DNA of 64,000 nt. Origin: Neocallimastix lanati (nom. inval.) (taxonomy: Eukaryota > Neocallimastigomycota > Neocallimastigomycetes > Neocallimastigales > Neocallimastigaceae). The stretch lies in contig JACVTC010000034.1 in assembly GCA_016946835.1 (NCBI GenBank), positions 917,001 through 981,000 of the forward strand, written 5' to 3'. A program made the translations under genes and the position numbers. A model generated the notes under the pieces. The model saw only the letters and a program-made list of their open reading frames with translations. It searched no databases and was not told where the DNA came from. Of the stretch, positions 13,213 to 64,000 are shown in pieces. Within the stretch, counting starts at the first letter, position 1. The number at the start of each line of letters is the position of its first letter.

Positions 13213-13267
13213 TCGAAGGATAAATAGTAAAGTCTGAACAGAAATTGTTATGTAAGTTTACCTATAA

Positions 13268-13893
13268 TGTTAAAGTTTTTAGATAATTTGGTCTTAACGA
13301 TTAGGTCAAGATGCCAAATTATAGTAATTAATTAATAATTTAATTATACTCTTATTTAAAACATATTATTATTAGTGAATTTTATAAATAAGTATTTTAT
13401 TTAAAATATAAGTTTTATTCAATATTAATAATATTTTATTACATTATTATTTTATATAATTATTACTATAATTTAAATTACAATAATCCTACAAAGGATT
13501 AATCAAAGATTTAAACATGTATTTATATAAAATAATTAATTATTAAAATATTAATTATTAATATGAATATGTAATAGTATTAATATAAGTTTGATATTGA
13601 TAATATAAAGTAAGATAGTAATATAAATATTTAATATAAATAAAATATAAGAATATAATATGTAGAAATTAATTTAATATGACAATCACGTGTTTACATT
13701 ATTTAATATATATTAATTTCAATATGTTAATAATATTTAGTAATTAGTTGGCCTAGACTAATTCCTAAATATTTTAATAAAGTTAATTTAATAATAATTA
13801 TTATATTATTATTTTTTAATATTGAAATTCAAATAACTGAATTATTGAAATTGAAATTGAAATTGAAATTGAAATTCAGTTATTATCTTAACA
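13268..13893 (-). repeat. Solo LTR D1 (chromovirus family of C)
   Basis: 626 bp beginning TGTTAAAG and ending CTTAACA on the plus strand, flanked by perfect 5-bp duplications TATAA (13263-13267 and 13894-13898). It is diverged but alignable with the LTR at 14681-15392, which belongs to C on the minus strand. Units 3 and 4 show the unoccupied joint. An internal recombination between two LTRs probably removed the rest. Confidence 0.8.
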
Positions 13894-14537
13894 TATAAAA
13901 AACTTGACCCTTCAAATAAATTATATTAAAATTGCTTTTCTTTAAACTAATTGAATTGGTCTATATTTTTAAAAATCATTATTTTCACAAAATTATTAAT
14001 AATTATTAGTGTATTTTAAAATAATTTTATACATAATTATTCAAGAATAATATAATTATTTAATTATTAATTATATTAATAATGTTAATTTATATTTATT
14101 ATTAATATCTTAAGTCTCTTTATCAATTTTAAATTTTAAATAACTCTTTTTTAAATAAATAATTTAAATAATACATTTATTAATATTATTTATTTTTAAA
14201 TTTGTTAAATTGTTTAACTAAATTTTTTTACTAGAAATAGAATAGTTTTTTATGTTTATATACATTTTTTTCTTATTAAAAGTAAAAAAAAATTAGCGAA
14301 TGTAAAAAAAAATTACAATAAAACAAATATTATCTTAAATATAAAATTTTCTTCTTCTTTTTATTATATTTTTCTATCTTTTATAAATATATTTTAACTA
14401 ATCAAAGTTTTAATATCATTTTCAATAATAGTAATAAAAAAAAATAATAATAATAATAATTATAATAATAATCTTTATATATATATATGTATAAATTTTT
14501 TAATGAAAAATTGAATTAAAAATAATAATATAAAGTC

Positions 14538-14542
14538 AAAAA
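14538..14542 (-). terminator. Pol III terminator of tRNA-Met copy 1
   Basis: Five T residues on the minus strand immediately after the tRNA discriminator base, the usual RNA polymerase III stop. The same T5 is present next to the other three copies. Confidence 0.75.
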
Positions 14543-14615
14543 TGCGAAGTGTGAGGTTCGAACTCACGACCTTAAGATTATGAGACTTACGCGCTGCCGA
14601 CTGCGCCAACTTCGC
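14543..14615 (-). tRNA. tRNA-Met(CAT), elongator, copy 1
   Basis: 73 nt without CCA. Acceptor GCGAAGT pairs with ACTTCGC, and the D stem is GCGC/GCGC. The anticodon loop CTCATAA gives CAT. The T arm is GTGAG-TTCGAAC-CTCAC. Internal promoter boxes are intact (A box TGGCGCAGTCGG, B box GTTCGAACC). The layout matches the eukaryotic elongator tRNA-Met, including the usual T-T at the base of the anticodon stem. Delivers Met to internal AUG codons. No intron. Confidence 0.95.
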
Positions 14616-14630
14616 TTTCTCGGATTTTGA
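14616..14630 (-). promoter_or_regulatory. Empty landing pad upstream of tRNA-Met copy 1
   Basis: TTTCTCGGATT followed by TTGA (14627-14630), leading directly into AGAATAAATAG of the next unit. This is the uninterrupted junction of two tRNA units. TTGA lies 12-15 bp upstream of the mature tRNA 5' end, where Pol III transcription should begin. At the equivalent spot of copies 2, 3 and 4 there are large retroelement piles. Confidence 0.75.
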
Positions 14631-14680
14631 AGAATAAATAGTAAAATCTGAACAGAAATTGTTATGTAAGTTTACCTAAA

Positions 14681-21627: not shown

Positions 21628-21700
21628 TGCGAAGTGTGAGGTTCGAACTCACGACCTTAAGATTATGAGACTTACGCGCTGCCGACTGCGCCAACTTCGC
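21628..21700 (-). tRNA. tRNA-Met(CAT), elongator, copy 2
   Basis: Identical in sequence to copy 1, with the same T5 terminator at 21623-21627 and the same downstream spacer. Upstream comes CTTCTCGAAT, then T-rich sequence and retroelement J at 21715. The 5' flank has therefore been displaced by about 12 kb of insertions, ending at unit 3 (33913). Confidence 0.95.
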
Positions 21701-21714: not shown

Positions 21715-22386
21715 TGGCAAATGTTGATTATTATCTTAATTTAGAATTTACTTCTAAAAGTGATAATAATTTGTCAATTAAAAGGGTAGTTATTAACACA
21801 AAAATGTTAATTAAAACACTACAGTTTAAAATAAGAAAAGAATATTTGTTTTTTTTTATAATAAAACTTTATTTATCAATATAAAATTGTACTTTTTATT
21901 ATTTTGAATATTTATATTCTTAATAAAAAGTATTTAAAATAAATGAGAATAAAAGAAAATAATTTATTAAAACTTAAATTTTAAATTTTTAATTCTTGAA
22001 TTCTGATTTTTTATTTTTAAAGAAATATTTACATGTTTTTATATTTTTTTTTTAAGTTTAAATTATTTAAAATAAAACTATATAATTATTTTAAGTAAAC
22101 ACTTTTAAGATAAAATAAACAATTTTGTTATTATTAATAAGTTTCTTTTTAATTAATATTAATATCAATTTAAACTGAGATTTAATTTAAAATCGTTAAA
22201 GTAAAATAAAAGAATAATTTAATATAAAATACATTGTTCTTTAAATTAAAAAATATTTATTTAATAATTTTAAATCTTTTAATTTATTTTTATTAAAATA
22301 TTATTTTATAATTATCAATAACTAATTAAGAGGGTTATTATTCCATTTTATTGATTTTTCTTAATTTATAATTTGGTTATTTATCA
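21715..22386 (+). repeat. Putative degenerate solo LTR J
   Basis: About 670 bp of AT-rich sequence beginning TGGCAAAT and ending ATTTATCA, resembling the B-family ends. It lies 10-14 bp upstream of tRNA copy 2. Flanks are TTTT on the left and TTTTA on the right, so the duplication is not exact. No other full copy is in the window, and the call rests on its ends and position. Confidence 0.45.
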
Positions 22387-22391: not shown

Positions 22392-22857
22392 TGATACGTG
22401 ACCACTATAAAAATGGTATTTAGGTAGATTCTTTAGGTTAAAGAAATACTTAAATATTATTGGTCAATAATAATTTTATAATAATATATATAATTTTAGA
22501 ATAATAATTGTTAAACGGAGAATTCTTTTATTTATAAGTATATACTTATGATAAATTAATTCACATAAATAGCTATTTTTATATTTTATTTTAGTATAGT
22601 TAAAAAGAGATATTATGTATATTTGAGATAATTAATTATAATATTTATGTAAGAGAGTAGTAATAATAATTGATGTAATAATTAATAATTAATAATAAAT
22701 AAAGAGTACATTAAAAAGATATATTTATTACTTTATTTTGTATTATTGTATGTGTTATTTCTATTTAATATTAGAATATATTATTTTGTCATAATTCCTT
22801 ATTGTCATTGCCCATAAATAAATATTAATTTAGATACATAAATAAAATATCGTATCA
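22392..22857 (+). repeat. Solo LTR G1
   Basis: 466 bp with TGATACG...CGTATCA ends, nearly identical to the two LTRs of G2. Flanked by TTTA (22388-22391 and 22858-22861). Confidence 0.85.
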
Positions 22858-22861: not shown

Positions 22862-23875
22862 TGGTAAAGAATGAATTAATAACCTTTATTTTATTATTAA
22901 TAATTCTTTACTAAATTGTACTTTCCTATATTCTTGATAACCTAAACTTAATAATAAAATTTAATTTATTTTGATATAAATTAATTTTAACTTGTAAATA
23001 ATGTAAATAAATTTTAATTAATTATTTTATTGTTATATTATTAAATATATGTATATTAAAATACAATTGTAAATATTAAAATTATACTTTTAAGATACTA
23101 AACTATTAAAACTATTAATTAAATATTATTATAAAAATTATTATAAAATTATTAAAATTATTAATTAAATATTATTCTAAAAATTATTATAAATTATTAA
23201 TATTATAAAATTATTAAAATTATTAAATATTATTATAAAAATTTATATATTATAACTATTAAATATTATTATAAAATTATTAAGATTATTAATTAAATTT
23301 ATTATTAAAAATTATTATTAAAAATTTTTACTTATTATAAAAATTATTATTTAAATATTATCAAATTTATTAATTAAATATTATAAAAATTTTATTTTAT
23401 TTTGAAAATAATTACAAGTATTATTTAAAATAATTAAAGATTATTAAATTTATTATATTAATCTTTAAAAACAATTTATTTAACTTAAAAATATCAAAGA
23501 AAATAGTAAAAACTATTTTCTATATATTTATTTTATAATTATTTTTAATTAAATTATATTTGAATATTATATTATTATATTTATAAAAATTAAAACAAAA
23601 ATGAATTATTGATATAAAATTAATTCAATAATTCTATAAAATTACTTAAATTATAAACAATTAATTATACTTTAAATTTATAAAAAAATATAAATATTGT
23701 AACAATTTCTTAAAAATTAAATATGTGTACTTTAAATAATAAAATTTTATATTAATAAAAAAAATAAATAACTTTTAATAAAGAATTATTTTTTTTTATT
23801 TAAAATCAAAGCAGGGTAATACCCGTCCCCCCCTGCTTGATTTTAAATATCTAAGTGTCAACCCCGAGTCTACCA
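22862..23875 (+). repeat. Solo LTR H1
   Basis: 1014 bp with TGGTA...TACCA ends and TTTA on both sides (22858-22861 and 23876-23879). Very similar to H2 and H3. No coding part of this family is in view. A strong GC-containing hairpin lies near the right end (23802-23844). The name LTR is by ends and duplication length; a non-LTR origin is possible. Confidence 0.7.
23802..23844 (+). other. Terminal hairpin of H1
   Basis: AAAATCAAAGCAGGG pairs with CCCTGCTTGATTTT around a C-rich loop. It stands out in almost pure A/T sequence and is conserved in H2 (46754-46796) and H3 (47757-47799). It could be a 3'-end RNA signal. Confidence 0.6.
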
Positions 23876-23879: not shown

Positions 23880-24366
23880 TGATAAGAATGTACTAAATAA
23901 TGCATTCTTAATTAAATCTACGATTTATTTCTAATACATTATGTGTACATTATTATTTTTGTACTTTAATAAATTTTTAAATCCAAAGATCAAAAATTAA
24001 ATCAAAAATTATATTAAACTTTATATTTTTATATTAAATCTTATATTAATAGTTATATTTTTATATATTTAAAACTTATATTAACAATATTAATAATAAA
24101 TCTTATTTTTTTTATTTTTATATTAATAATGAAAATTTGTATTAATAATATTTTTATATATTGATAATTAAAAATTTATATATTATATTTTAACTTTTAT
24201 TATAAAATTTTATATCGAAATGTTTTATTTTATATTGAAAAATATTTTATTTTATTAAAAACCTTTATATTAGAATAGTTTTTTTATTTTTATTTGAATA
24301 TTTTAACAGATTGTAATAAAAAATATAGCCAATTAAATAAATTCTTATTAGTAATATTTTAGATAG

Positions 24367-24398
<32 letters not shown>

Positions 24399-24712
24399 TG
24401 TTTTATTAATATTATAAATGTATTTTATTTATATTGTTATAATTAAATTTTATATAATTGATTATAAAACTCAATTTAAATTTAATAGTTTTTATAAAAA
24501 AAAAAAATAAATAAAATGTAATTTAGTGGCAAGAACAACTTTTATGCCTTGAAAAAAAGTATAAATAGTTGTAAATTTTGCTACTAATTTTTAAATATCA
24601 TCAAAAAAAAAAATAAATTTAATAAAATAAATTTATAAATAAAAATAACAAATAAATAAATAAAATTTGTGTTTCTTACTTTATTTTTATTTAATTCTCT
24701 AAAACCTTAACA
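23880..24712 (+). repeat. 5' LTR of F1
   Basis: 833 bp, beginning TGATAAGAATG and ending CCTTAACA. TATA-like TATAAATAG lies at 24560-24568, about 145 bp before the end, after the only non-A/T-rich stretch (GGCAAGAACAAC). An A run near 24373 differs in length from the other LTRs. Confidence 0.85.
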
Positions 24713-26138
24713 TTTATATGGTGGAGATATCGGGGAATTAAATAGAAATAATAGTAAATAACATAGATTTTTTTTAATTTTTTTTTTATTTTATATTGAT
24801 AAACAAGTAAGTCGTTAATCCTTTGATTAACCTATGGCGCTTGTTTGATATATATATAAAAAAAAAAAATTTTTTTTATTTAAATAAGTAAAATTAAGAT
24901 TCTAAAAAAACCAAATCTTGTAAAATTATAACAAGGAGCGGATAGAGCTCATATACAGTGTATTTCCAGAAAACAACAAAATATCTATTATTCATAGTAG
25001 GTTATTGGATAATAGTTATTTTGGGAATTAATTGGAAAGTAGACGAAGGTATTTGGTTACCGATCCGGTAATAATAGTTCAGCCTTCAACGTTTCAACAC
25101 ACGAAGGTGCGGGTACTTTCCAAGCACTGGCGAATAAGGAGCTTACGTCACCGAAGGCGTAAGATTGTTTTTTTTTATATTTTTTTTTTATTTTTCTTTG
25201 TGCTAGTTATAAGGCACTTTATTATATAAAGTATCAGACTTTGGCTAACTTCGCCATTTAAATTTTTTTTTTTTATTTTTTTTTTATTATTACTGGTACT
25301 TTATTTGTTATATAATTCCTGTAATAGAATCTTAATTTACTTTGAAAATATTGTGTTTTTAGTTAATTTTTATTAGTTAATAAAAATATTATTGAATACT
25401 TTTAAAATTTTTTTTATTCCGTACATAGATTATCGGATTAAGTTTATCCTACATAGTAATTGGGCTAGTGGGCTCTGAACTGCTATATTTTATATTGAAT
25501 ATAGTAATCGTGGCACACGCGTGGCATGACACCATTAGGTAAGCTGCACGTCAGACAGTGTGTACTATCAGATTGTACGACAATAAAGATTATTTTTTTT
25601 GTGTTTAATAATTATAATTAATTAATAATTTTATTAGCTATAACAATACAATATTTATCGTTTAAAAAGAAAAATTTTTGAAAGGTGAAAATAATAAATA
25701 AAACTTTGCTTCTAAATTTATTACTACAAATATACTAAATTACAAAATTCAAGTGGTCGATAAAGATTTCGAGCTTGAAAAATATTCTTTTAAGTTGTCG
25801 ATAAAGATTTCGAACTTAAAATTATTCTATTGAGTTGTCGATAAAGATTTCGAACTTAAAAATTATTCTATTAAGTTGTCGATAAAGATTTCGAACTTAA
25901 AAATTATTCTTAATAAAGTAGTCGAAAAGAACCTCGTGCTTTGTAATTTCTACTAAGTTGTCGATAAGGATTTCGAGCTTATATCTACTAAAGAAAGCAA
26001 ATAAAATTATTATTTTCAAAAGTTACTAAAATATATTGTTTTAAAAATTGATTCGATATTAAATTACCTATTAAATTATATTTTGATAGTTGGATTTCCC
26101 AAATTTATTCGTATTTAATCACCTCATATTTAGACAAA
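24713..26138 (+). other. Leader of F1 with PBS, hairpin block and short tandem repeats
   Basis: 1.4-kb untranslated leader. TGGTGGAGATATCGGGG near 24718 is the likely primer-binding site. The stretch with GAGCTCATATAC (24940s) and the hairpin with TTACGTCA (25127-25166) are shared with family A. Six direct repeats of about 42 bp follow at 25751-25985. No gene is supported; a 65-codon frame at 25032 is not conserved. Confidence 0.7.
25751..25985 (+). repeat. Leader minisatellite of F1
   Basis: About six copies of a 40-46 bp unit built on GTCGATAAAGATTTCGAAC, one of them degenerate. Each unit has two TCGA boxes 8 bp apart. F2 carries about five at 40160-40355, so copy number varies. It ends about 150 bp before gag. 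Confidence 0.75.
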
Positions 26139-27044: not shown

Positions 27045-27065
27045 ATGGGAGCAGAAGCACTCCCA
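27032..27065 (+). promoter_or_regulatory. Gag-pol -1 frameshift signal (F1)
   Basis: TTTAAAC (27032-27038) lies in the gag frame as T-TTA-AAC. A 7-nt spacer is followed by stem TGGGAG / CTCCCA with the 8-nt loop CAGAAGCA. The F2 copy is on the minus strand at 39051-39084. Confidence 0.8.
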
Positions 27066-47830: not shown

Positions 47831-48606
47831 TTGATGATACGGAACTAACTAATAATTCGTATTATACTATTGGAAATTATAATTAAGTTTAATAACTTTA
47901 TGTATTAAATATTTTAAACTATTTTTATAATTCCAAAATTTTATTCTTAATTTAAAATAATTATATAAATTATCAAATTAAATTGATTAATGACTAATTA
48001 TTAAAAAATCATTATTTAATTAAATTGATTAATGACTAATTATTAAATAATTATTATCTTATATTAATTAAATTGTTTTATTATTATATTTAATTATTAT
48101 TAATATTAAATTGTTTCAAGAATTATATTATCAAAAATATTACCAATAATTTTATTGTTAAATTTTTTAATTTTATCATTAATAATATTTGTCATTAAAG
48201 ATAATATTAATTATATTAGTATTAATATTTTTATTATTAAAATAACTCTTAAAAAATATTATTTATAATCACATGTAATAATTATACTAATAAGAATTAA
48301 AATAATTTAAATTATTATAAAAATTCATGTAGTAAAAAAGTATAAAAGAAAAAGAAAATACTTAATAAAAAATCAGGTGTTAAAAAAATAAAAAAAACGG
48401 AAAGTGAAATTAAATTATTAACTAATATATTATTTTCATTTTTTTTTTTGAAGTTTATTGTGTACCTGCACCAAATTGGCGAGCTATGCAGGACACAAAG
48501 AAAATAATATGAAAAATTAATAATTTAAATGAATATTAAGAAATTTTAATTATAAAAAGAAAAAAATTAATTCTATATTAAAAATAATATAATAAAATAA
48601 ATTAAA

Positions 48607-49500: not shown

Positions 49501-49637
49501 AAACCATAAATGATACTGAAACTGATGATATCGTAGCAGCTGTCACTAGGCAAACAAGACAATTAAATACAAAAAAGAAACCTTACGATAAACATCAGAA
49601 AATAGCCACATTAAAAGAAAATCCTCAACCAATAAAA

Positions 49638-52600
49638 ATGCTTTCGAAATCACAAACAAATGATCGAAAAATGGAAGTAGAAGTAGAAAATATTAATAAT
49701 GAACCAAAAAGTAACAATGAAGAAGAACCCTTAAATAACTCAAAAAATAGAGAAGAAACGGAAACCTTAAAAGAAATTGACTTGTCTGTGATTGCCAACC
49801 CATCAATAAACAAAGCAAAAAGGGATTCAAAGAAGGAAAGAATATCAGAAATAATGGATAAGAAACCCGAAGAAGAAGAAATGAGAAAAAAGGTTACAGC
49901 TAAACTACCCAGTACTCAAATGGAAGAAAAGAAGAATAAATGCGAAAGATTAAAAAATGATAAAAATAAAGAAGAAATGAGAATCGAAAATAATAATGAA
50001 GAGAATCCAAATAACAAAAAGGAGAAGCACATTATTCTAATGGAAAACCAAGCAAAGTACGATCTTGTAACTGATTTAACATCTACCACAGCTAATATAA
50101 CTCTGGCTCAATTGTTGGATATAAGTCCAAAATTGCGAGCTCAACTTAATAAATTGTTAAAGCTAAAAGAAACACCTCATAACGGAAAAATGGAAGAAAT
50201 GGTATTATCTACTGTCTCAAGGAAGGATATAGCTACTACTAAATGTAAAATTAACGGAGAAGATGGATTCGCCTTTTTAGATACATGTGCAAGCATTAAC
50301 ATAATAACGAGTAAGTTTTTAGGCAAGTTGAAAAATATAAAACCATTTGGTTATACAACTAACAATATTATACAGGTAACTTCGAAGACCCACATATCCT
50401 CTGAATTATATCATTTAACAGTTGAATTCAACGATTTCATTATTCAAGACGTATTTAGAGTAATAGAACATGATCAGGATCTGTTTGATATCTTGATAGG
50501 TTTCAGGACCTTAAAGGATAATAATTTATTCATTAATCCTATTCGTAATAGTCTATGTAAAATGAAGAAAGATGGTACATTTACAACAATCTCAGCTTTA
50601 GAAATAGATGAAGAAGAAAAAGAAATAGATGAAGAAGTAAAAATTGAAGAAACTGAAATGCAAGATAATCCAGATTCCATGTTATTTTGTTTCATAAACA
50701 AAGAATCATCAGAAATACAGAATGCAATTACGATTAAGGAAAATAAAAAAGACAAAGAAGAAAATACAATCATTGAAGAAAAGAAGACAAGAATTGAACA
50801 AATTATAAAAAATACAATAGAAGTAGTTAGAGGCCGATTCAAGGAACTATTAAAAGATAATATTGAAATCTTAGCAATAAAAATAGATGAATTAGGTTCA
50901 ACAAAGTTATTACCGCACCATATCAGTTTAGAAGAAAATACGATTCCAATCAAACAAAAAGCTTATCGATTATCTAAAGTACAAGCAGACGCCCTGAAGG
51001 AAGAGCTAATTAAATTACTGAACAACCATTTAATTGAACCATCCAGTTCACCATGGTCTTCTCCAGTTATTCTTGTAAGGAAGAAGAATAATAAATGGAG
51101 AATGTGTATAGATTTTCGGAAGCTCAACAACGTTACTATTAAAGACGCTTATTCTCTGCCACTAATAGATGATATACTTTTCTCAATCGGAAAGAAAGTT
51201 AAAGTATTTTCAACAATAGATTTATTCTCCGGCTTTTATCAAATTCCAATGTTCCATGAAGACATTCCCAAAACAAGTTTTACAACAATGTACGGTAATT
51301 ACCAATTCCGGGTAATGCCGTTTGGTTTATGCAATGCCCCAGGAACCTTCCAGAGAGAGATGAACAGGATATTTTTTCCGCTCATTGGGAAGTGTATGTT
51401 TATATATATCGATGATTTAATCATATTCTCTCCAACTTTTGAACAACACATAGAAGATTTAAAGAAAGTATTTGATATCCTAAAGGATAATGGATTAAAA
51501 ATCAATCTCGACAAATGTGATTTTTTCAAGGAATCAGTTGAATTATTAGGCCACACAGTATCAATTGAAGGAATATCACCAATTAATAAAAAAATTGAGA
51601 TTATACGTGAATGGTTACCTCCTACCAACATCACGCAATTACAATCATTTCTTGGAGCAGTAGGTTATTATAGGAAGTTTATATACAACTTTGCAACAAT
51701 TGCCAAACCTCTATTTAAACTACTTAAAAAGAATGTAAAATTCTCTTGGGAAGCTGTTCAACAAGAGAGCTTTGAAGAACTTAAACGAAGATTAATCACA
51801 GCCCCTATTTTATCAATGCCTGATTTCGACAAACAATTTATAATCAGGACAGATGCCTCAAAAGATGGAATAGGTGGAGTCCTGATACAAAAAGATGAAA
51901 ATAATATCGAAAAACCAATACATTATATGAGCAGAACTTTGAAACCAGCTGAAGTAAACTATGGGATTACAGATTTAGAAGGAGCTGCCGCCGCTTTTTG
52001 TGTTAAAAAATTTAAATCCTATATTTCGGGAAGTAAATTCGAAATATTGTTGTTCACAGATCACAAACCATTAATAAGTATATTCAAAAGTAAAGAAACC
52101 TTAAATGCCAGACAGTCAAGATGGGTAATTATGTTCTCTATGTTAAAAGTTAAAGTCATTTACGAACCAGGAAAACGTAATGTATTAGCGGATGCGTTAT
52201 CTCGACTTAGATCAAAACCATCGGAAGTAATAGCTACCTATTTAGAAGAAATTAATACAGGAAAAAATTCGTTATTAAAGAAGTTTGAAGAAAAATTTTC
52301 AAGAATAAACAATGAAGAATATTTTATAGATGGAGGCACATTCAGAAAAGTAATTAAAGAAGATAAAGAAAAAATTAAACTATTATTAGAAGCCCATAGG
52401 ATAGGCCATGAGGGAATCTTCAAAACGTATAACAGGCTCAAACGTGATTACTATTGGAATAACATGGTCTTGGATGTAAAATACATAGTCAATACGTGTA
52501 AACACTGCCAACTGTTCAAACCACAAACTTTCAATTCAAACACCGAACACATCCCAACAAAGCCGGGATTACCTTTTACCCAGGTAGGACTGGATATAGT

Positions 52601-53438
52601 AGGCCCTTTACCACAAACAAAAAATGGAAATCAGTATATCCTAGTATTAGTCGATTATTTAACAAAGTGGGTTGAAGCTGAACCCACTGTCAAGATTGAA
52701 TCTGATGATATAATAGGCTTCTTAACAAGAGTTTTCTCAAGACATGGAGTTCCCGAAATATTAATAACGGATAACGGTCCCCAGTTCAAGTCCGACAAAA
52801 CTAAAGCTTTCCTAGATTTATATGGTATTTATGTGCACTTTGTTTCTGTCTATCATCCTGAATCTAATGGTATGGTAGAAAACAGAAATAAAGAAATAGG
52901 AAAATATCTAAGAATATTATGTAATGAAAATATAGAAAATTGGGATTTAATTCTACCAAGTGCTTTGTGGGCTCTCCGTACCTGCAAAAACGAAGTAACA
53001 AAATTTTCAAGCTTTGAATTACTCTACGGCCGTCGTGACTTACAACCCTTCGAGCTATCTTTAAATCTGGATAAAAAAGAAAAAGGTGAAAGTATTACGG
53101 AATACCTTATAAGAAAATTTGCTAAACATTACCAATGGATTCATGAAGCAATTAATAATATCACTACAGCCAACAAAATTTGGGAAGACAGAAGGAACCA
53201 GATGAAAAGAATGAAAGCCAACTACAATCCAGGAGACCTAGTATTAATACGATTAATAAACAGAAGAAAATTAGATCCTTATTTCGTAGGCCCACTGAAA
53301 ATCATCAAAAAGGAATTTAATACAGTTACTCTCGCAGATCCTATTACCGGCGAAATTTCTGATAGGAATGTACATCTAAAAAATATAGTTCCTTATAAAT
53401 TATGTGAATTAGAGACTTCAGGGACGAAGTCTAAATAA
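49638..53438 (+). CDS. Pol of E (protease-RT-RNase H-integrase)
   Basis: 1266 residues from the first Met; the -1 frame is open further upstream into gag, so the product is probably Gag-Pol. A protease-like region lies near 215 and RT has YIDD near 591. RNase H shows RTDASKDG and TDHKP. The integrase has its zinc region (EAHRIGHEG, CKHCQ), DDE core (LDIVGPLP, TDNGPQF, ESNGMVEN) and a GPY/F-like YFVGPLKII. No chromodomain, so targeting must come from another part of the integrase. Confidence 0.9.
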   Translation: MLSKSQTNDRKMEVEVENINNEPKSNNEEEPLNNSKNREETETLKEIDLSVIANPSINKAKRDSKKERISEIMDKKPEEEEMRKKVTAKLPSTQMEEKKNKCERLKNDKNKEEMRIENNNEENPNNKKEKHIILMENQAKYDLVTDLTSTTANITLAQLLDISPKLRAQLNKLLKLKETPHNGKMEEMVLSTVSRKDIATTKCKINGEDGFAFLDTCASINIITSKFLGKLKNIKPFGYTTNNIIQVTSKTHISSELYHLTVEFNDFIIQDVFRVIEHDQDLFDILIGFRTLKDNNLFINPIRNSLCKMKKDGTFTTISALEIDEEEKEIDEEVKIEETEMQDNPDSMLFCFINKESSEIQNAITIKENKKDKEENTIIEEKKTRIEQIIKNTIEVVRGRFKELLKDNIEILAIKIDELGSTKLLPHHISLEENTIPIKQKAYRLSKVQADALKEELIKLLNNHLIEPSSSPWSSPVILVRKKNNKWRMCIDFRKLNNVTIKDAYSLPLIDDILFSIGKKVKVFSTIDLFSGFYQIPMFHEDIPKTSFTTMYGNYQFRVMPFGLCNAPGTFQREMNRIFFPLIGKCMFIYIDDLIIFSPTFEQHIEDLKKVFDILKDNGLKINLDKCDFFKESVELLGHTVSIEGISPINKKIEIIREWLPPTNITQLQSFLGAVGYYRKFIYNFATIAKPLFKLLKKNVKFSWEAVQQESFEELKRRLITAPILSMPDFDKQFIIRTDASKDGIGGVLIQKDENNIEKPIHYMSRTLKPAEVNYGITDLEGAAAAFCVKKFKSYISGSKFEILLFTDHKPLISIFKSKETLNARQSRWVIMFSMLKVKVIYEPGKRNVLADALSRLRSKPSEVIATYLEEINTGKNSLLKKFEEKFSRINNEEYFIDGGTFRKVIKEDKEKIKLLLEAHRIGHEGIFKTYNRLKRDYYWNNMVLDVKYIVNTCKHCQLFKPQTFNSNTEHIPTKPGLPFTQVGLDIVGPLPQTKNGNQYILVLVDYLTKWVEAEPTVKIESDDIIGFLTRVFSRHGVPEILITDNGPQFKSDKTKAFLDLYGIYVHFVSVYHPESNGMVENRNKEIGKYLRILCNENIENWDLILPSALWALRTCKNEVTKFSSFELLYGRRDLQPFELSLNLDKKEKGESITEYLIRKFAKHYQWIHEAINNITTANKIWEDRRNQMKRMKANYNPGDLVLIRLINRRKLDPYFVGPLKIIKKEFNTVTLADPITGEISDRNVHLKNIVPYKLCELETSGTKSK
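53413..53432 (+). promoter_or_regulatory. 3' hairpin before LTR (E)
   Basis: AGACTTC - AGGGAC - GAAGTCT, a 7-bp stem overlapping the last codons of pol, 19 nt before the 3' LTR and followed by the purine tract AAAGAAAGGGCGTC. Confidence 0.65.
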
Positions 53439-54089
53439 AGAAAGGGCGTCATGATACGGAACTAACTAATAATTCGTATTATACTATTGGAAATTATAAT
53501 TAAGTTTAATAACTTTATGTATTAAATATTTTAAACTATTTTTATAATTCCAAAATTTTATTCTTAATTTAAAATAATTATATAAATTATCAAATTAAAT
53601 TGATTAATGACTAATTATTAAAAAATCATTATTTAATTAAATTGATTAATGACTAATTATTAAATAATTATTATCTTATATTAATTAAATTGTTTTATTA
53701 TTATATTTAATTATTATTAATATTAAATTGTTTCAAGAATTATATTATCAAAAATATTACCAATAATTTTATTGTTAAATTTTTTAATTTTATCATTAAT
53801 AATATTTGTCATTAAAGATAATATTAATTATATTAGTATTAATATTTTTATTATTAAAATAACTCTTAAAAAATATTATTTATAATCACATGTAATAATT
53901 ATACTAATAAGAATTAAAATAATTTAAATTATTATAAAAATTCATGTAGTAAAAAAGTATAAAAGAAAAAGAAAATACTTAATAAAAAATCAGGTGTTAA
54001 AAAAATAAAAAAAACGGAAAGTGAAATTAAATTATTAACTAATATATTATTTTCATTTTTTTTTTGAAGTTTATTGTGTACCTGCACCA

Positions 54090-54925
54090 TTGAAGAATAA
54101 ATAATAAAATCTGAACAGAAATTGTTATGTAAGTTTACCTAAAAAAAAACTTAACCCTTCAAATAAATAATTAATTAAATTATTATATAAAATTGTTTTT
54201 CTTTATACTCATTGAACTCGTCTATATTTTAAAAAAATCATTATTTTCACAAAACTATTAATAATTATTAGTGTTTTTTAAAATAATTTTATACATTATG
54301 ATTAAAGAATAATATAATATTCTATTATTAATTATTTTAATAATATTAATTTATATTTATTATTAATATTCTAGTCTTTTTATCAATATTCAATATATTA
54401 CTATTTATAATAATTCCTTTATTACTATCTATATTAAATTTTAAATAACTCTTTTTTAAATAAATAATTTAAATAATAAATTTATTAATATTACTTATTT
54501 TTAAATTTTTAAATTGTTTTACTAAATTATTCTACCAGAAATAGAATAGTTTTTTATGTTTATATACATTTTTTTCTTATTAAAAGTAAAAAAAAATTAA
54601 CCAATGTAAAAAAAATTTACAATAAAACAAATATTATCTTAAATATAGAATCTTTTTCTTCTTTTTATATTATATTTTTCTATCTTTTATAAATATATTT
54701 TAACTAATCAAAGTTTTAATATCATTTTTCAATAATTGTAATAAAAAAAAAAATAATAATTATATTAATAATCTTTATATATATATATATATATAAATTT
54801 TTTTATTAAAAATTGAATTAAAAATAATAATATAAAGTCAAAAATGCGAATTGTGAGGTTCGAACTCACGACCTTAATATTATAAGACTTACGCGCTGCC
54901 GACTGCGCCAACTTCGCTTCTTTTT
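54090..54925 (-). repeat. tRNA-Met tandem unit 4
   Basis: Starts TTGA-AGAATAAATAATAAAATC, then GTTTACC, the A-rich joint, CTTAACCCTTCAAATAAA, an AT-rich spacer of about 680 bp without a gene, the altered tRNA and TTCTTTTT. It is uninterrupted, so it is the best reference for a whole unit (about 0.84 kb). Confidence 0.8.
54845..54917 (-). pseudogene. Decaying tRNA-Met copy 4, anticodon now TAT
   Basis: Same 73-nt frame as copies 1-3 with three base changes. One turns the anticodon loop from CTCATAA to CTTATAA (anticodon TAT). One opens a pair in the anticodon stem and one a pair in the acceptor stem. A and B boxes and the T5 stop remain, so it may still be transcribed. A UAU anticodon would read the Ile codon AUA, but mispairs make a working tRNA unlikely. 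Confidence 0.8.
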
Positions 54926-54929: not shown

Positions 54930-55436
54930 TGATAAATAACAAAATTAATAAATCTTAAAAATATATTATACATAAAATCGAAACTAACCTTAGCCAAGTT
55001 TAATAATAATTTAATAAAATAAAAAAAAAAAAAAAAAAATTTAAAAATTAATTAATTAATTAATTAAATAAAACAAATAAATTACACTTAAAAATTACAT
55101 TAATACTCAGATATGAAAGAAATATTATATATTTTTCAAAATAAAAATATTAAGATTAAATTTAAAATAAAATAATTAATTTTTATAATTAGTTTTATAA
55201 TAATTTTTATAATTAATTTTATAATTAAATAATATTTTTATAATAATAAAATTAATTTAAATAACAAAATATTTTTAATTATTTTTATAATAAACAAATT
55301 TATTTATTTTATTATTAATTATTTATTTTATTATTAATTTTATTACTTTTATTTTATTTAATTATTCTTTTTATTTATAAATTATAAATAGTTTAATTTT
55401 AAAGAAAAATATAAATACTTGTAAATATTTCATGTA

Positions 55437-55468
<32 letters not shown>

Positions 55469-55701
55469 ATTTTATAATTTTAATAATCACTTTTAATTTT
55501 TATAATGTTTAATAAATTTCAATAAAAGATTTATAAAATAAAATATTAGAAAACAAGTGTTCTAATAAATCAAATTTTTAGTGTTATTTTTAATAAAACA
55601 TTTTTAATTCATAAATAACTTATACAGTTATTATTAAAATAAATTGAAATTATCACTTTTTAATTCTATATTAAAATTAAGATAATTTCTAAAATTTATC
55701 A
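54930..55701 (+). repeat. 5' LTR of B'
   Basis: 772 bp with 8-bp inverted ends. TATA-like TATAAATAG at 55383-55391. Followed directly by GTGGTCCTTCGAACCGG, a TGG-starting candidate primer-binding site. Confidence 0.85.
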
Positions 55702-56427
55702 GTGGTCCTTCGAACCGGAGAGGAAGCTAACTTATTATTAATAAGTATTATTTATTAACACTAGAGTATGAACTAGTATAAAAATTCATAATAATAAAAT
55801 AAAGGATAAATAATATTTATTATATAATAATAATTAAAAATTAAAACTAGAGTATGAACTACTATAAAAATTCATAATTTAAAATTAAAAATAAAATATA
55901 TATATATATGTATATATATATAATAATATAATAATAATATAATAAATAGAAATTAAATTAATATTGGGAAGAAAGCCATTTATATTAAGAAGAAAATAAT
56001 AAATAAATAGGAAAAGAACGACAAATATAAGGAAAGGAAACGATAGATAATATTTTGAAAAAAAAAAAAAAAAAAAAAATTCTATTTTAATTTTAAAGAA
56101 TTATATAGGTTTATATTTTATTAATCATAAACTATTGGAGCTTGACTCTAGGTCGCGATTAATAAGATATAAATTAGAGTAGCAAGAGAGAGTATTGGGT
56201 CCTGATTATAGAGAGTAGAGGTTAGACAGAACTGAAAATTGTACTGGAGAGTAATTGATTGGTTATATCGATACTTTGGTGAGAGATCCAGAGAAACGGA
56301 AAACTTTATAACCAGTCGAATGAAAACAGCACAAGAGAGTAAGTAGAGTCTAATGAGGTCGAAAATATAATCAGAACGCCAAGAAAATCTATTACTGCTA
56401 CATATATAATTCGAGGTTCTTAAATAA

Positions 56428-56501
<74 letters not shown>

Positions 56502-56707
56502 ATAATAACTAATTAAAGAAACGTATAATAAGTGAATGAATAAATATATTGAAATTGAATATATAAAATTTTAATTAATTAAAAATTTGATTAAATAATT
56601 AAATTTAAATATATAAATATTTTGTTAGCGAATAAATTATTATATAAAATAAAGTATATAAATTATATTAAAGAGAAAACAAAAATACTTCTAAATTCCA
56701 GAGTAAA
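55702..56707 (+). other. Leader of B'
   Basis: About 1 kb without a gene. Primer-binding-like TGGTCCTTCGAACCGG at 55703-55718, two ACTAGAGTATGAACTA repeats near 55760 and 55848, a less AT-rich block near 56140-56400, and a run of about 70 A at 56430-56499. From 56533 it matches the part of the B leader right of A1. Confidence 0.65.
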
Positions 56708-57601
56708 ATGTCCGATTTAAAATCAATTAATTTCAACAGAATTCCTATATTAGGTCAACCGACTGTAGAATTTGATGATTGGAATTTCTCATATACTCGT
56801 TGGTGTAATTCCAATAAAATTGACGAAGAAGAAAAGATAGAATGTTTAATTTCAATTACTACTGGTATTGCAAGAAAGATAGTAATAAATTCATTAAATA
56901 AAACTACCCCAGATAAATATGATACCATTATAAGTAAATTACAGGAACATTACAAGGGTCCTCTTCCTAAAAATTCAAGGTTATTAGAACTTTCAACAGC
57001 TACAATTAAGAAAGGTGAAAGTGTTGCAGAATTCAACATAAGGTTTGAAACACTTTTAAATAAAATTAGAATTGATTTAAATAAGGAAGTTATAATCTCT
57101 TATTATATTAATGCATTTCGGACTTTAACTAAAACCTATGAGGCTTTATTAGAAGCAGAACCGCAAAACTTAAAAGATGCAATGCAAATAACGTCTAAAA
57201 AGGAGAAGATATATAAATTAGTAGAATCAAATAGGTCTAAAGATAAAGGAGAATCAAACAAAAGAAAAATAAAATCTAACACTCAAAATGATTATGGAAC
57301 ATATTATACAAGTACTTATAATAAAAATAATTCATTTAATAATAAGAATAATAATATAAATAATAGTCACAACAATAATTACCAAAAATATAATAATAAT
57401 ATAAAACCTACTCATAATTATATTAATCAAAATGTTGAAAATAGAAAAGTCACATTGAAACCTACACAACTTCAAGATGATGAATTACAAGAAATAACTC
57501 AGAAACTTGCTGATTTAAAAATCAATGTATGCTTAAATTGTCAAAGAATAGGTCATGTTAAAGATGATTGCCCTGAATTAGAAGAAGAGTGTTTAAATTA
57601 A
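56708..57601 (+). CDS. Gag of B'
   Basis: 297 residues, differing from B Gag at only a few positions. Same gag region, Asn-rich linker and CLNCQRIGHVKDDC knuckle at 275-288. Frameshift signal at its end (TTTAAAT 57592-57598, stem 57606-57625). Confidence 0.88.
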   Translation: MSDLKSINFNRIPILGQPTVEFDDWNFSYTRWCNSNKIDEEEKIECLISITTGIARKIVINSLNKTTPDKYDTIISKLQEHYKGPLPKNSRLLELSTATIKKGESVAEFNIRFETLLNKIRIDLNKEVIISYYINAFRTLTKTYEALLEAEPQNLKDAMQITSKKEKIYKLVESNRSKDKGESNKRKIKSNTQNDYGTYYTSTYNKNNSFNNKNNNINNSHNNNYQKYNNNIKPTHNYINQNVENRKVTLKPTQLQDDELQEITQKLADLKINVCLNCQRIGHVKDDCPELEEECLN

Positions 57602-60600
57602 ATTATGGGAGTAAGCAATCTCCCAAAATAACTAAAATTGCATCATCAAATCAATCAATAAATTACCTTAATAACGAAAATAATCAAATCCCTCAAATTA
57701 ATGTAGCCCAGAAAAAGAAAGTGCCTACAAGTACTTTGGATAAGAATAAAATCTCTCAAAATAATAAAAGTATAGTTAAACCATCCATTCTCAATCAACC
57801 AAATATTAAGAAAGTTAAACAATAAAAGAAAGCAATTAGGAATACAAGAAGAAGAAAAATAAGTGAAGAACTTAATAATGAAAAACAAAATGACCATGAA
57901 TTAAATGATAATGAGGAAATTATTATTGATGAACCATATAATACAAAGGAAAATACAAAAGATTCTGAAATGAAAAATAATTCAGAAATCAATAATGGAA
58001 ATAATAATGAAAGTAATAATGGAAATAATAAAAATAATGTAATTAACATAATTGATGAACATAGAAAAATAAATAATGAAAATAATACCAAAGACGTTCT
58101 AACACATAGTCAATCTCTCAGTCAAACTAAACAAACCAGAAAAAGAAGTATGACAGATATACAAATGCTAGAATCAGGTAATAAATTTAGTATAATTAAG
58201 GAAGCCAACAACTTGTTTCCGAAAATTAGTCTTGCACAATTACTTTCTATTAGTCCTACTCTTAGGAAGGAATTAGGACAAGGATGTAAGCCAAAAATAG
58301 ATAATGTATTATGCTCTCTTTATAATATTCCTATCCCAATCTTTATTGGAAAAACGAAAGAAGTATTTTTAAAAATTTTTTACGATACAGGAGCAAATGT
58401 AAATGTTATAACAACAGGATGTTTAAATAAATTTAATGATGTGAAAATTGAAGAAGATATAATAGAACAAAATATTACTTTAGCAAATGGATCTACAGTA
58501 CCTACTAAATACTATGTTCCATTGAAAATTAACATTAATGATTCTTGCAACATTTATGAAAAATTTTATATTATAAATCAAGATAATCCATACTTTGATA
58601 TTATTTTTGGAAGAAGTATCCAAAAGAAATATAGATTACTTATTGATCCAGATGATGATTTCATATATCAGAAAACAAGAAAAGGTCTTAAAAAGATAAT
58701 CCAGATAATTAACTCAAATAACACAAATAATATTCCCTTAATGAATGCTATTTATGTATCTAAAGAAGATGAAGAAATTCGTGAATTTAACTCTACCTTA
58801 AACGAAATTCTCAATTCTGTTCCAGATAAAGTTAAATCAAAATTTGAAAGTCTTATTAATCAATACAAAAATTGTATGGCAACATCACTAAGTCAGCTAA
58901 CAACTGCTAACCTTGAACCACATTCAATAATTACTACTACGGAAAAACCTATTAAGCTAAAACCTTATAAATTATCAAAAGAGCATTCTGATATTCTAAA
59001 AGAAGAAATTATATCCTTACTTAATAAAGGCTTAATTATTCCCTCGCATTCTCCTTGGTCATTTCCTGTTTTATTAGTCAGAAAGAAAAATGGGAAATGG
59101 AGACTATGTATAGATTACAGAAGGCTTAATGAAATCACTATTAAAGATTCATATGCACTTCCTTTCATCGATGAACTTGTCTCTTCAGTTAGAGGTGCTA
59201 AAATATTTTCAGCCCTTGACTTATATTCGGGTTATCACCAAATCCCAATGAATCCCAGAGATATCGAAAAAACTTCTTTCACAACAAAATTTGGAAACTA
59301 TAATTTTGTTGTTATGCCTTTCGGTTTAACTAATGCTCCCGCTACCTTTCAAAGGGAGATGAACAGAATCCTTTTACCCCTCATTGGTAAATGCTTATTC
59401 GTTTACATCGATGACATAGTTGTATATTCTACTTCTATTGAAAAACATCTTGAACATTTAAAACAAGTATTTGAAATATTCTCCAAGTATAATCTCTCCC
59501 TCAATCTTCAAAAATGCAAATTTTTCCAAGAATCAATTGAAGTCTTAGGTCATGTTCTTACCCCTAATGGTTTAAAAACTGTTCCTTCTAAAGTTCAAAG
59601 TATAGCCCTTTGGGAAGCTCCCAAAAATGTTAATGAACTCAGGTCTTTCCTTGGTCTTGCTAGTTATTACAGAAAATTTATACAAAATTTCTCTATTAGA
59701 GCTGACTCTCTTTTTAAACTTCTTAAGAAAAATCAACCATATATATGGACTTCTGATCATAATGAAGCTTTTGAAGACATACGTCACTGTTTATTGTCTG
59801 ACCCTATATTATGTTATCCTGACTTTGATAAAGAATTTATTGTTAGAACAGACGCCTCTACTCAAGGTATCGGTGCTGTCCTCTTACAGGTGGAGGAAGA
59901 CAAATTGGAACACCCAATTTGTTGTGTAAGTCGTACTTTATCACCTCCAGAAAGAAATTACTCTGTAACTGATCTTGAAGGTTTGGCTATTAATTACGCA
60001 ATCCAAAAATTCCGTCAGTACTTAATTAGTAACAAGAAACCAACTATATTCATTACGGATCATAAACCACTCTTAGGATTTTACAAAAATACTATTCCAA
60101 ATAAAGGAAGACACATGCGTTGGATAGAAGAATTTAGCAAATATAAAATTGAACTAAAATATGAAAAAGGAAAGAAAAATGTTTTCGCAGACGCTCTTTC
60201 AAGACTACCTTCAAAAGACAGCGAAGATATTATAAAATGTATTAATACAATTTTAGCTGATCTTAATCCAAAAGATTTAAACCTACCAGAAGGAATAATC
60301 AAATACTTCACTAAGAATTATCAAGTTGTTGATAACATCTTATATTATAAGAAAGATGATACTTATTTAAAAGTTATCTACCGTGATGAAGACAAAAAGG
60401 ATATAATTAATCGTGCTCATTCTGTAGGACATGAAGGAGCCGAAAAAACTGTAAACAGAATACTAAATTCATATTATTGGCCCGGCATTTGGAATGACGT
60501 TAGGATGTGGATCAAATCTTGCAGAAAATGTCAACTTTGTAGACCAAAACCAATCCCGAAAAACACTGCAGATAATGTAACACCAGTTGAACAACCATTT

Positions 60601-61467
60601 ACTCGTGTTGGACTTGATACGATTGGTCCTCTTCCAATTACTAAAAATGGAAATATGTATATTATTACATTGGTTGACTACTTCACAAAATGGGTTGAAG
60701 CTAAAGCCATTCCAAACACAAAGACTGAAGAAGTTATAAAATTTTTAACTGAAGTTATATCAAGACATGGTCCTCCAGAAATAATTGTTACAGATAATGG
60801 AAGTTCGTTCGCATCAGATATTACTAAAATGATGATCGATCTTTATGGGTCATGGGTGCACTTTGTATCTCCACATCATCCAGAATCAAATGGTATGATT
60901 GAAAACCGTAATAGAGAAGTAGAGAAAATTTTAAGACTCTTAGTTGAAAACGAAAGTGAATGGGATGAATATTTACCATCCGCACTTTGGGCTCTTAGAA
61001 CAACAAAAAATTCCAAAACAAAATTTAGCAGCTTTGAATTACTTTATGGGAGAAAAGACACCTGGCCATTAGAAGTAATGTTTCCAGATATTTACAAAGA
61101 TCCAAATGAAACAGATGAAGAATATATTTTTAGAAAATTCCTAAGACATCAGAATTGGGTGAAACAAGCAACAGAATATTCGGATTACGCAAATCAATAT
61201 TGGGAACATCGCATTGGACTATCGAAATCACTAAAGAAAAATTATAAACCCGGAGATTATGTGATGATAAGATTAATTGGAAGAAGTAAGTTAAATCCTT
61301 ACTTTTATGGACCATATAAAGTAGTTAACAAACAAAAATTCAATACAGTTGTCCTCGAGGATCCTCAAACAGGAAAACTTCTTGATCGAAATGTACATAT
61401 TAAAAATGTTTTTCCTTATATCATTCCAGAAAAAGAATTAACTTCAAGGGACGAAGTTCAATCTTAA
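57589..61467 (+). pseudogene. Pol of B', about one break
   Basis: Same domain order as in B: protease (YDTGAN), RT (YIDD), RNase H, integrase (zinc region, DDE, GPY/F-like end). The part from the protease onward is one long open frame of more than 1100 residues. About one break overall. Confidence 0.85.
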
Positions 61468-61479
61468 CCGCCGAGGAAT

Positions 61480-61989
61480 TGATAAATAACAAAATTAATA
61501 AATCTTAAAAATATATTATACATAAAATCGAAACTAACCTTAGCCAAGTTTAATAATAATTTAATAAAATAAAAAAAAAAAAAAAAAATTTAAAAATTAA
61601 TTAATTAATTAATTAAATAAAACAAATAAATTACACTTAAAAATTACATTAATACTCAGATATGAAAGAAATATTATATATTTTTCAAAATAAAAATATT
61701 AAGATTAAATTTAAAATAAAATAATTAATTTTTATAATTAGTTTTATAATAATTTTTATAATTAATTTTATAATTAAATAATATTTTTATAATAACAAAA
61801 TTAATTAATTTAAATAACAAAATATTTTTAATTATTTTTATAATAAACAAATTTATTTATTTTATTATTAATTATTTATTTTATTATTAATTTTATTACT
61901 TTTATTTTATTTAATTATTCTTTTTATTTATAAATTATAAATAGTTTAATTTTAAAGAAAAATATAAATACTTGTAAATATTTCATGTA

Positions 61990-62021
<32 letters not shown>

Positions 62022-62254
62022 ATTTTATAATTTTAATAATCACTTTTAATTTTTATAATGTTTAATAAATTTCAATAAAAGATTTATAAAATAAAATATT
62101 AGAAAACAAGTGTTCTAATAAATCAAATTTTTAGTGTTATTTTTAATAAAACATTTTTAATTCATAAATAACTTATACAGTTATTATTAAAATAAATTGA
62201 AATTATCACTTTTTAATTCTATATTAAAATTAAGATAATTTCTAAAATTTATCA
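61480..62254 (+). repeat. 3' LTR of B'
   Basis: 775 bp, nearly identical to the 5' LTR; TATA-like site at 61936-61944. Preceded by the 3' hairpin (61440-61458) and followed by GCTT. Confidence 0.85.
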
Positions 62255-62258
62255 GCTT

Positions 62259-64000
62259 TGATAAATAACAAAATTATTAAATTAAAATAAATAATAAAAA
62301 ACAAATTCATGTTAAAGTTTTCTAGCTTAACCCAAAAATTAATCCATTCTAAAAAAAATTAAATCCATATTTAAGAAAAATTAATTAAATAAAGATAATT
62401 AAAATAAAATAATAAATTAATTAATCATTAATAATTTTAATTAAAAACTAAAATAAATTAATAAATAATATTTTTCTAAGACTCCAAATAAACAAAATAA
62501 TAAACAAATTTAATAAATTATAAATAACAAATAAACAAACTTATAAACATCGCAAAATTAAAATTAGATAGTTAAATAATTTTTTAAGTTACTTTTATTT
62601 AAAATAATGATTATTTTATTTATTTTATAACTCAACTTTTATAAACAAATTGTAATTAAAATAACATTTTAAAACTCATCTTTATCAACATTTTATTTGT
62701 AAATATTGTTTAATTTAATAATAAATTATTCTTTATTTCTCTTTTATTAATTTTATTATTTTTAATGTAAATAGTTTAAAATCAAAGAAAAATATAAAAA
62801 CATGTAAATATTTCTTATAAATTATTCTTTATTATTAATTATTTAATAAATTATTATAAATATTTTATTAGTTTTAATAATCAAAAAGTATGATTATTAA
62901 TTATTTAATAAATTATTATAGATATTTTATTAGTTTTTAATAATCAATTTTTATGATTATTAATTATTTTGATAAATTATTATATATTTTATTAGTTATT
63001 AATAATCAATTTTATTATTAAAATTTAAAATAAATTAGTATAAATAATAAATATTTCATTTTATTATTTTATTAGTTTTTAACAATTATTTTATTAATTT
63101 AAACAAAATTAATTATTAAATAAATAAAGATTAATATTAAAATAAAAATAAATTTTTTTAATAAAACATTTTTGTGTTTAATAATAAAACATATTTATTT
63201 TTTTAAATTTCTTAAATCAATTTTATTCAGTATTTATCCTTTTATTCACTTCTACAAAATTTAATTTTTGTAGATTAAGAATATTAGGTATAAATCAACT
63301 TCATGATAAAAGATGAAATTTATAATTTAAAATTAATTAATAAACTAAAATTAATAATTTGTAATAATAATTTACTAAACTATAAAATTATAAATAATTA
63401 TTATAAAAAGTTAGTATTTTCAAATAAAATTTTAAGATTAATAAAAGAACAATGTAAATTTAAATAATTAATATAGAAATTAAATTTAAATAATTTTATT
63501 ATGTAAAATATATTTTATTACATAAATATTTGTTATTATTTGATATAATTAGTAAATAGTTATTTTACTTTAAAGACTTAAAACTAATTCTTTTTTTTTA
63601 AAATAGAAAATAAGACTTTAAATAGAATTAAAATAGTAATACTTTTTCTTTTTTTAATATTTCTAAAAGATATAAATAGTAATTAAATTAGATAGTTAAT
63701 TATATAGCTTAATCTTAACGAAAATTATAAAAACATGTAATAATTCTTATTTAAAAGAACAACATTTTTGTTAACATTTTTGTTTATCAAAACTTGTTCA
63801 ATAAATACTTATTTTATCTTATTTAAATTTAAAAGTATTTATTTAATATTATAAATTTAAAATTTAATAAAAATTAATATTTAAAAATTAAATAAAATTT
63901 ATGTATTAAAATAACTTCATTGTTTCTAATAAATCAATTTTAAAAAGTTTTATAATAAAATATATTTTAATTATCTTAAAATTTATAACTTTGATAAAGA
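62259..64000 (+). repeat. Diverged B-like LTR sequence (M), running off the window
   Basis: Starts TGATAAATAACAAAATTAT right after the GCTT of B'. It keeps scattered blocks of the B LTR (AAAGAAAAATATAAA..CATGTAAATATTTC near 62780, a related block near 63730, TTCTAATAAATCAA near 63927). A second TGATAAAA start at 63304 and ACTT-TGATAAAG at the window end hint at two or more LTRs in a row. No gene is seen in these 1.7 kb. Confidence 0.45.

Follow-up and report, generated by a model that had tools for sequence, protein, structure and literature searches.

Ty3 of Saccharomyces cerevisiae, a Ty3/gypsy retrotransposon, is inserted by its integrase at positions -6/-2 of the start of genes transcribed by RNA polymerase III (Pol III) and makes a 5-bp duplication; a chromodomain behind an SH3 fold (integrase residues 446-511) binds Brf1 (PMC8632968). 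Other Ty3/gypsy elements, namely Tj1 of Schizosaccharomyces japonicus, Tyl3, Ylt1 and Tyl6 of Yarrowia, Tca8 of Candida and DGLT-A of Dictyostelium, are found upstream of the tRNA start or the mature tRNA, at a distance of 1-33 bp (PMC5911963 Table 1). Clustering of tRNA genes with elements is described for S. japonicus (PMC4600332), and several elements at one tRNA gene are mentioned in PMC5006619. The long terminal repeats (LTRs) of Helenus, Ajax and Cassandra, retrotransposons of the TRIMp3 type, contain a sequence that resembles a tRNA or 5S RNA and bears the boxes of a Pol III promoter (PMC10886601). Here, a 64,000-nucleotide stretch of the Neocallimastix lanati genome (contig JACVTC010000034.1; G000:C268:917001-981000), called the window, was analysed. 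It contains four tandem tRNA units beside which LTR retrotransposons are piled up. The results indicate that a Ty3-like clade (families B, C and E) and its relatives without a pol gene very probably integrate at a point set by the Pol III transcription complex and not by the local sequence.

The elements of the window share with Ty3 the Ty3/gypsy order of the pol domains and the insertion beside a Pol III gene start. Unlike Ty3, they made a 4-bp duplication (18/18 readable C copies and the window piles), the integrases of B, C and E did not extend beyond the SH3-type domain into a chromodomain-bearing stretch, and many families used one site and piled up on it. The targeting thus resembles that of Ty3 in its working but differs in two features, the length of the duplication and the chromodomain stretch. 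The duplication of Tj1 is also 5 bp, in contrast to the 4 bp found here, and in Table 1 of PMC5911963 the hosts of Tj1, the Tyl elements, Tca8 and DGLT-A have one to three targeted elements each. The literature consulted on these elements showed no single 4-bp site with a chain of several families. An earlier reading of the letters (the original prediction) had not recognised a multi-family pile in a tRNA-Met tandem array with 4-bp duplications as described; this claim had to be tempered, since Ty3, Tj1, the Tyl elements and DGLT-A use the same region and several elements at one tRNA gene have a precedent in the source named above. The present analysis also went beyond it: other kinds of tRNA genes and one 5S gene were hit, and some targets were inside the LTRs of other retrotransposons. 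The features of the window are as follows.

14543..14615, minus strand: tRNA(CAU) unit 1, target site TTGA at 14627-14630 empty
21628..21700, minus strand: tRNA(CAU) unit 2
34116..34188, minus strand: tRNA(CAU) unit 3
54845..54917, minus strand: unit 4, decayed (three substitutions, anticodon TAT)
21715..22386, unstranded: G, LTR-like element of 672 bp, the closest one to tRNA 2, TTTT on both sides
22392..22857, plus strand: D solo LTR, duplication TTTA
22862..23875, plus strand: F, LTR-like, about 1 kb, duplication TTTA
23880..31903, plus strand: C1, full-length Ty3-like element, duplication TTTA
31908..33678 (far end approximate), unstranded: J, decayed, with 54-bp tandem repeats
33683..33912, unstranded: I, 230-bp palindromic element, duplication TTTA
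34203..42233, minus strand: C2, full-length Ty3-like element, TTTG at 34199-34202 and 42234-42237
35077..39108, minus strand: C2 pol open reading frame (ORF) of 1344 aa with reverse transcriptase (RT), RNase H and integrase
42239..45141, plus strand: D, 2.9-kb element with identical LTRs, duplication TTGA
45146..45803, plus strand: K, LTR-like, duplication TTGA
45808..46827, plus strand: F copy 2, duplication TTGA
46832..47830, plus strand: F copy 3, duplication TTGA
47835..54089, plus strand: E, full-length Ty3-like element, duplication TTGA (54090-54093)
54930..62254, plus strand: B2, full-length Ty3-like element, duplication GCTT
62259..64000, plus strand: further B-type LTR start behind GCTT, continuing beyond the window
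12460..13212, plus strand: 3' LTR of B1; its end abuts a unit's target site, TCGA at 13213-13216
2616..3263, minus strand: LTR of element A; its tRNA-like unit at 3170-3228 is of the type struck by B and C elsewhere
6867..7514, minus strand: second LTR of element A, uninterrupted, adjoining the B1 edge
~14681-20973: H, of another gypsy lineage, in junction 1/2, TAAA on both sides

The four tandem units on the minus strand were found as predicted, and piles stood at units 2, 3 and 4. The predicted distance of 9-15 bp did not hold: in the window, LTR starts lay upstream of three tRNA genes at a distance of 12-14 bp, and elsewhere the distance was 11-16 bp. At least seven LTR-type families occupied the target site, four of them with paired LTRs (B, C, D, E) and three as LTR-like singles (F, G, K), where at least six had been claimed; the small palindromic element I also belonged to the pile at unit 2. 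B2, C1, C2, E and D had paired LTRs, TG...CA ends and a target duplication. The 4-bp duplications agreed with the prediction (TTTT/TTTA at unit 2, TTTG/TTGA at unit 3, GCTT at unit 4, TCGA behind B1), and so did the end of B1 at the same point of a unit.

Outward from the tRNA, the pile at unit 2 consisted of 14 bp, G, the D solo LTR, F, C1, J and I; the duplications were TTTT first and TTTA thereafter, and the unit's own sequence was back from 33917 (GAAATAAATA). At unit 3, the order was ten bases, TTTG, C2, TTTG and an additional A, D, K, F, F and E. TTGA separated every element from D outward to E, and the own upstream sequence resumed at 54094 (AGAATAAATA). At unit 4, B2 was flanked by GCTT and followed by a further B-type LTR, and this pile extended out of the window; the claim that the unit sequence resumes outside the piles was thus confirmed at units 2 and 3. 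The last ~90 bp of K were similar to the end of the D LTR. Junction 1/2, described as empty, was empty at the target site but held H, which sat ~65 bp upstream of tRNA 1, off the target site, and had a right end without the canonical CA. The ends of the hairpin-like pile member I read TGATACGGGC.

The duplications recorded the order of insertion at two places. Because TTTG lies one base nearer to the gene than TTGA and a leftover A precedes D, C2 was inserted after D at unit 3; since the duplications at unit 2 are shifted in the same way, G was inserted after D there. Comparison of the paired LTRs showed 0 mismatches in 466 positions for D, 0 mismatches and 1 gap column in 853 for C2, 0 mismatches and 1 gap column in 639 for E, 1 mismatch and 5 gap columns in 774 for B2, and 12 mismatches and 30 gap columns for C1; a few gap columns may reflect borders set one base off.

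In contigs C413 and C594, the tRNA of unit 3 was directly followed by D, without C2. After removal of C2 and one TTTG, the window was identical to C413 at 100% and to C594 at 99.8% over 562 bases. The spacing of units 2 and 3 was 12,487 in C413 vs 12,488 in the window, and that of units 3 and 4 was 12,688 in C594 vs 20,729 minus 8,035 (C2) in the window, a difference of 6 bp. The two contigs are probably other haplotypes of the same locus. Because they carry unit 3 without C2, an assembly error is unlikely and the element nearest to the tRNA is the newest one; the piles agree with these independent contigs.

In the assembly (199 Mb, 762 contigs, AT-rich), 85 copies of the studied tRNA were found (at most 3 mismatches), many of them clustered. 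The upstream sequence was read for 84 (C756:173839 was left out), some of which are haplotype or palindrome duplicates, so that not all are independent. An LTR end was present at 43/84 copies, comprising 36 intact starts and 7 decayed ones (the latter classed by eye), and 3/84 were left unsettled between classes. By script and by eye, the intact starts lay at 11 (1), 12 (3), 13 (5), 14 (18), 15 (8) and 16 bases (1). Upstream of the 84 copies, 18 TATCA words lay at a distance of 12-15, vs 0-5 per 6-bp bin over 20-121 bp, a local control. Genome-wide, the pattern TATCA plus A box plus B box at tRNA spacing gave 62 matches, while the reversed pattern gave 0 and 1. tRNA genes of about nine kinds (by eye) accounted for 61 of the 62, and 15 were the studied tRNA. 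Nine 5S matches were obtained and four were fetched: one (L140) had an LTR end 8 bases upstream, with the same sequence as at tRNA copy L004, and three were untouched.

The search for 5' LTR ends (at most 1 mismatch) yielded 790 for C, 224 for D and 445 for B, with 1, 0 and 12 for the reversed controls. The genome-wide test of family positions was run on samples: 20 full-length C copies (2 left flanks unreadable), 17 D ends and 19 B ends, the last two being left from 20 flanks each after 3 and 1, respectively, had been dropped as internal to the element. The D end C24:940354 was excluded because it was already covered in locus L086. The class "another LTR-like start" denotes TG or a known decayed start 2-6 bases off; many of these starts, not all, recur at other loci.

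In the 18 C copies with both flanks readable, the 4-bp duplications were identical in 18/18, and they varied from copy to copy (GAAT, TCAC, GAGT, CAGT, TTGA, AAAA and others). A tRNA, tRNA-like or X unit (X being another element, see below) stood at one end of 17/20 C copies. The 5' outer ends (n=20) lay at 7 tRNA genes, 7 tRNA-like units, 1 X unit, 3 other LTR starts and 2 other sequences (copies C71 and C96). ARAGORN placed six of these tRNA genes at 4, 14, 14, 15, 15 and 16 bases, and Rfam detected the seventh. Among the 18 readable 3' ends, 2 were at a tRNA-like unit (copies C63 and C71), 12 at another LTR-like start and 4 at neither. The 5' end of C thus mostly faces the gene; C2 in the window is reversed.

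For D, Pol III-type units stood beside 6 of the 17 outer ends, and the other 11 adjoined another LTR-like start; for B, the numbers were 5 and 13 of 19, with 1 at neither. Pooling C, D and B (n=56) gave 26 ends at tRNA, tRNA-like or related promoter-like units, 27 at another LTR-like start and 3 at neither. The background of a B box 60-70 bases away was 0.34% (1,705/506,840 positions). Rfam, run on sixteen flank loci, reported one tRNA above the cut-off (L095); a snoRNA match at L069 was far below it. The original prediction would have fallen if most other copies lay far from Pol III genes; in the samples, 17/20 C copies were at such units and 35/36 B and D ends were at units or another LTR-like start.

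The tRNA-like sequence beside C and B had 255 genome copies, often paired 5.25-5.32 kb apart. It starts at nt 35 of the LTR of element A, which begins with TGTAACGAAATC. In this LTR, an A box and a B box were present, and their distance from the break was the same as in real tRNAs. The C duplications in A (TTCA, CAGT) are letters 13-18 of A's own LTR; therefore, C entered A. In three A pairs that were fetched, the first LTR was interrupted in 3/3 (by B, by C and by an unnamed end) and the second in 0/3, where pairs of A as of X had been chosen by exact spacing, which excludes insertions into the second LTR, so that these numbers are no sign that B, C and D avoid it. The A copy at the B1 edge in the window was uninterrupted. 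The unit of X had 325 genome copies, often paired ~7.03 kb apart; it showed an A-box-like word at tRNA distance and a weak B box. At four fetched 5' LTRs of X (L144, L154, L156 and L157), an LTR-like end was seen by eye 0-10 bp outside. The tested A- and X-type units had no match to an Rfam family, so that "tRNA-like" here refers to the A and B boxes and their spacing. A- and X-type units were also considered as Pol III genes of their own; this was rejected, as the pairing at 5.3 and 7.0 kb places them in LTRs.

The tRNA-like units in the LTRs of other retrotransposons appear to be landing pads. The LTR of A resembles those of the TRIMp3 elements in bearing a tRNA-like sequence with A and B boxes. 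TRIMp3 elements are short (Helenus 311-1263, Ajax 421-434 and Cassandra 565-860 bp; PMC10886601), whereas the LTRs of A are 5.3 kb apart and enclose an ORF with Gag and chromodomain, and those of X are 7.0 kb apart and enclose a pol of 1183 aa. In contrast to TRIMp3, the units here were struck by other retrotransposons. In the open-licence PMC literature, nothing was found on retrotransposons hitting tRNA-like units in other LTRs, nor on tRNA-targeted retrotransposons of anaerobic fungi.

The pol of B, C and E encodes RT, RNase H and then integrase (H2C2 and rve), as in Ty3/gypsy elements. B, C and E shared 54-57% RT identity with each other, H and X shared 57%, and the identity across groups was 38-45%; for integrase, the values were 49-57%, 37% and 25-31%. 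These identities define two lineages, one with B, C and E at the site and the other with H and X. Compared with solved structures, the whole pol of B, of C and of E each matched Ty3 (7q5b) best. The integrase of C could be aligned with the Ty3 chain (1547 residues) as far as position 1444 and ended 7 residues later; position 1444 is taken as the end of the SH3 fold on our assumption that the Ty3 integrase has 536 residues. No Chromo domain was hit in the B, C and E pol, and their ORFs stopped 12-18 bp before the 3' LTR.

The D element had a single ORF of at least 250 aa, which was Gag-like (42926-44386) and 31% identical to the Gag of E, and it had no pol. The X copy in L144 had a 443-aa ORF and the 1183-aa pol with RT, RNase H and integrase and an SH3_Tf2-1 match just below the cut-off. 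The A copy in L010 had an 825-aa ORF with matches to Gag, SH3 and chromodomain and none to RT; by its SH3 and chromodomain, A sides with the lineage of H and X. Relatives of the E pol were present in metagenome collections, and a Neocallimastix californiae protein showed 49% identity over 34% of the query.

These results are best explained by the following mechanism, of which the data show the insertion position, the duplications, the succession of insertions at two places, the range of targets and the kinship within the clade. TFIIIC on the A and B boxes would position TFIIIB just upstream, and the integrase complex would dock at TFIIIB, its probable guide, and insert across a 4-bp stagger, with the end ~14 bp from the mature tRNA. 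Integration next to the presumed start was observed at tRNA genes and at other genes of the Pol III type. Insertion would spare the gene with its boxes and the last 10-12 bp in front of it, and it duplicates 4 bp; for this reason, the site would be rebuilt beside the gene and be reusable by any family of the clade. Newcomers would displace older elements outward, and the newest layer would therefore lie next to the gene. The relatives without pol (D with Gag only; F, G and K known as LTR-like copies) would be mobilised in trans. The same complex may form on the tRNA-like units in the LTRs of A and X, which are hit at equal distance and would presumably be active with Pol III. From this, two guilds can be proposed, a proposal for which the arguments appear evenly balanced: the long elements A and X, with working tRNA-like Pol III promoters in their LTRs, would supply hundreds of mobile pads, and the Ty3-like B, C and E and their followers would read Pol III complexes as addresses and thereby be carried off the host tRNA genes, each hit rebuilding the pad and the stacks recording the order of transposition.

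Integrases that recognise a DNA motif which happens to sit upstream of this tRNA family would account for the T-rich sequence of many sites and for the TGATA shared by several element ends. This is highly improbable, because the duplications of the 18 readable C copies were dissimilar and, upstream of genes for tRNA-Thr, -Glu, -Gly, -Ser and -Pro, C lay at 14-16 bp despite unlike flanks. Even less probable is random insertion followed by selective loss elsewhere, with the regions upstream of tRNA genes as safe places: insertions are known to be tolerated in tRNA flanks, but 31/36 starts within 13-15 bp and chains on the same 4 bp are beyond what selection can give, and the same distance was kept at tRNA-like units inside transposons, where no host gene is at stake. 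That recombination or conversion copied the pile as a single composite, or that the assembly created it, in place of a series of separate insertions, has a slightly higher but still very low probability. The sequences of families D, F and C are common to the piles at units 2 and 3, and tRNA arrays are known to recombine readily; however, the order of the families and the duplications (TTTA, TTGA) differed between the piles, C413 and C594 hold unit 3 without C2 and are nearly identical around the site, and copies elsewhere have different neighbours.

A more serious alternative, though still a doubtful one, is that the LTR units of A and X do not act as Pol III promoters, so that B, C and D join their edges in another way, or that A and X insert beside LTR ends. 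The weak B box of X and the missing Rfam match speak for it, as does the 5' LTR of X, which begins 0-10 bp from its neighbour with the break outside X, so that the order of arrival is uncertain. For A, the break lies within the LTR and the duplications are A's own letters, which shows C to have entered it, and the boxes stand at the distance of real tRNAs from the break.

Several observations weigh against targeting by the Pol III complex. Native upstream sequence was retained at 38/84 tRNA copies (35 by script and 3 by eye), and in the tandem array at C555:460-467 kb all seven copies were native with empty target sites. One C copy was only 4 bp from a tRNA-iMet gene. Three of the 56 outer ends (C71, C96 and B122) fit no class, although the other end of C71 faces a tRNA-like unit. 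Two of the 62 pattern matches were misleading: one (C555:462201, among the 15) was a native site with a chance TATCA, and the other (C745) was not a tRNA. The C, D and B samples were drawn non-randomly from the first 100 rows listed, and in the class of other LTR-like starts a TG is expected by chance in about 1/5 of cases by our estimate. With the C integrase alone as query, foamy-virus integrase ranked above Ty3, which was sixth.

Targeting of Pol III genes is itself already known, and the landing pads in LTRs are the newest part of these results. Such targeting has mostly been discussed for single elements in small genomes, whereas in the present genome of 199 Mb it seems to govern an entire clade. 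As 4-bp staggers are made without the chromodomain "ruler" of Ty3, a different anchor can be sought. The piles form a stratigraphy of transposition, for which the two haplotypes provide a before-and-after pair, and the insertion points may serve as natural footprints of Pol III complexes, including those inside transposon LTRs.

Several further loci were recorded. Element A forms a tandem array of LTR-internal-LTR-internal structure (window 1-7514, locus L010); its last LTR adjoins B1, whose body begins at ~7515, and A thus meets B1 on the 5' side. At L109, L113, L115 and L086, an LTR-like start TGATTTATACC follows D ends by five bases, not four. Close pairs of tRNA-Cys and tRNA-Gly genes stand beside D and B ends at L108, L111, L119 and L136. 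The sequence at L096 (C31:519991-520288) is GC-rich, had no Rfam match and directly adjoins a C end; it is possibly an unknown Pol III gene. Array G000:C555:460321-467034 (L048 and L049) comprises seven copies of the studied tRNA at 0.9-1.7 kb spacing. In three regions (G000:C390:369-385 kb; C114:191-205 kb; C283:12-27 kb), the studied tRNA occurs in an inverted, palindrome-like layout with identical upstream sequence in both arms.

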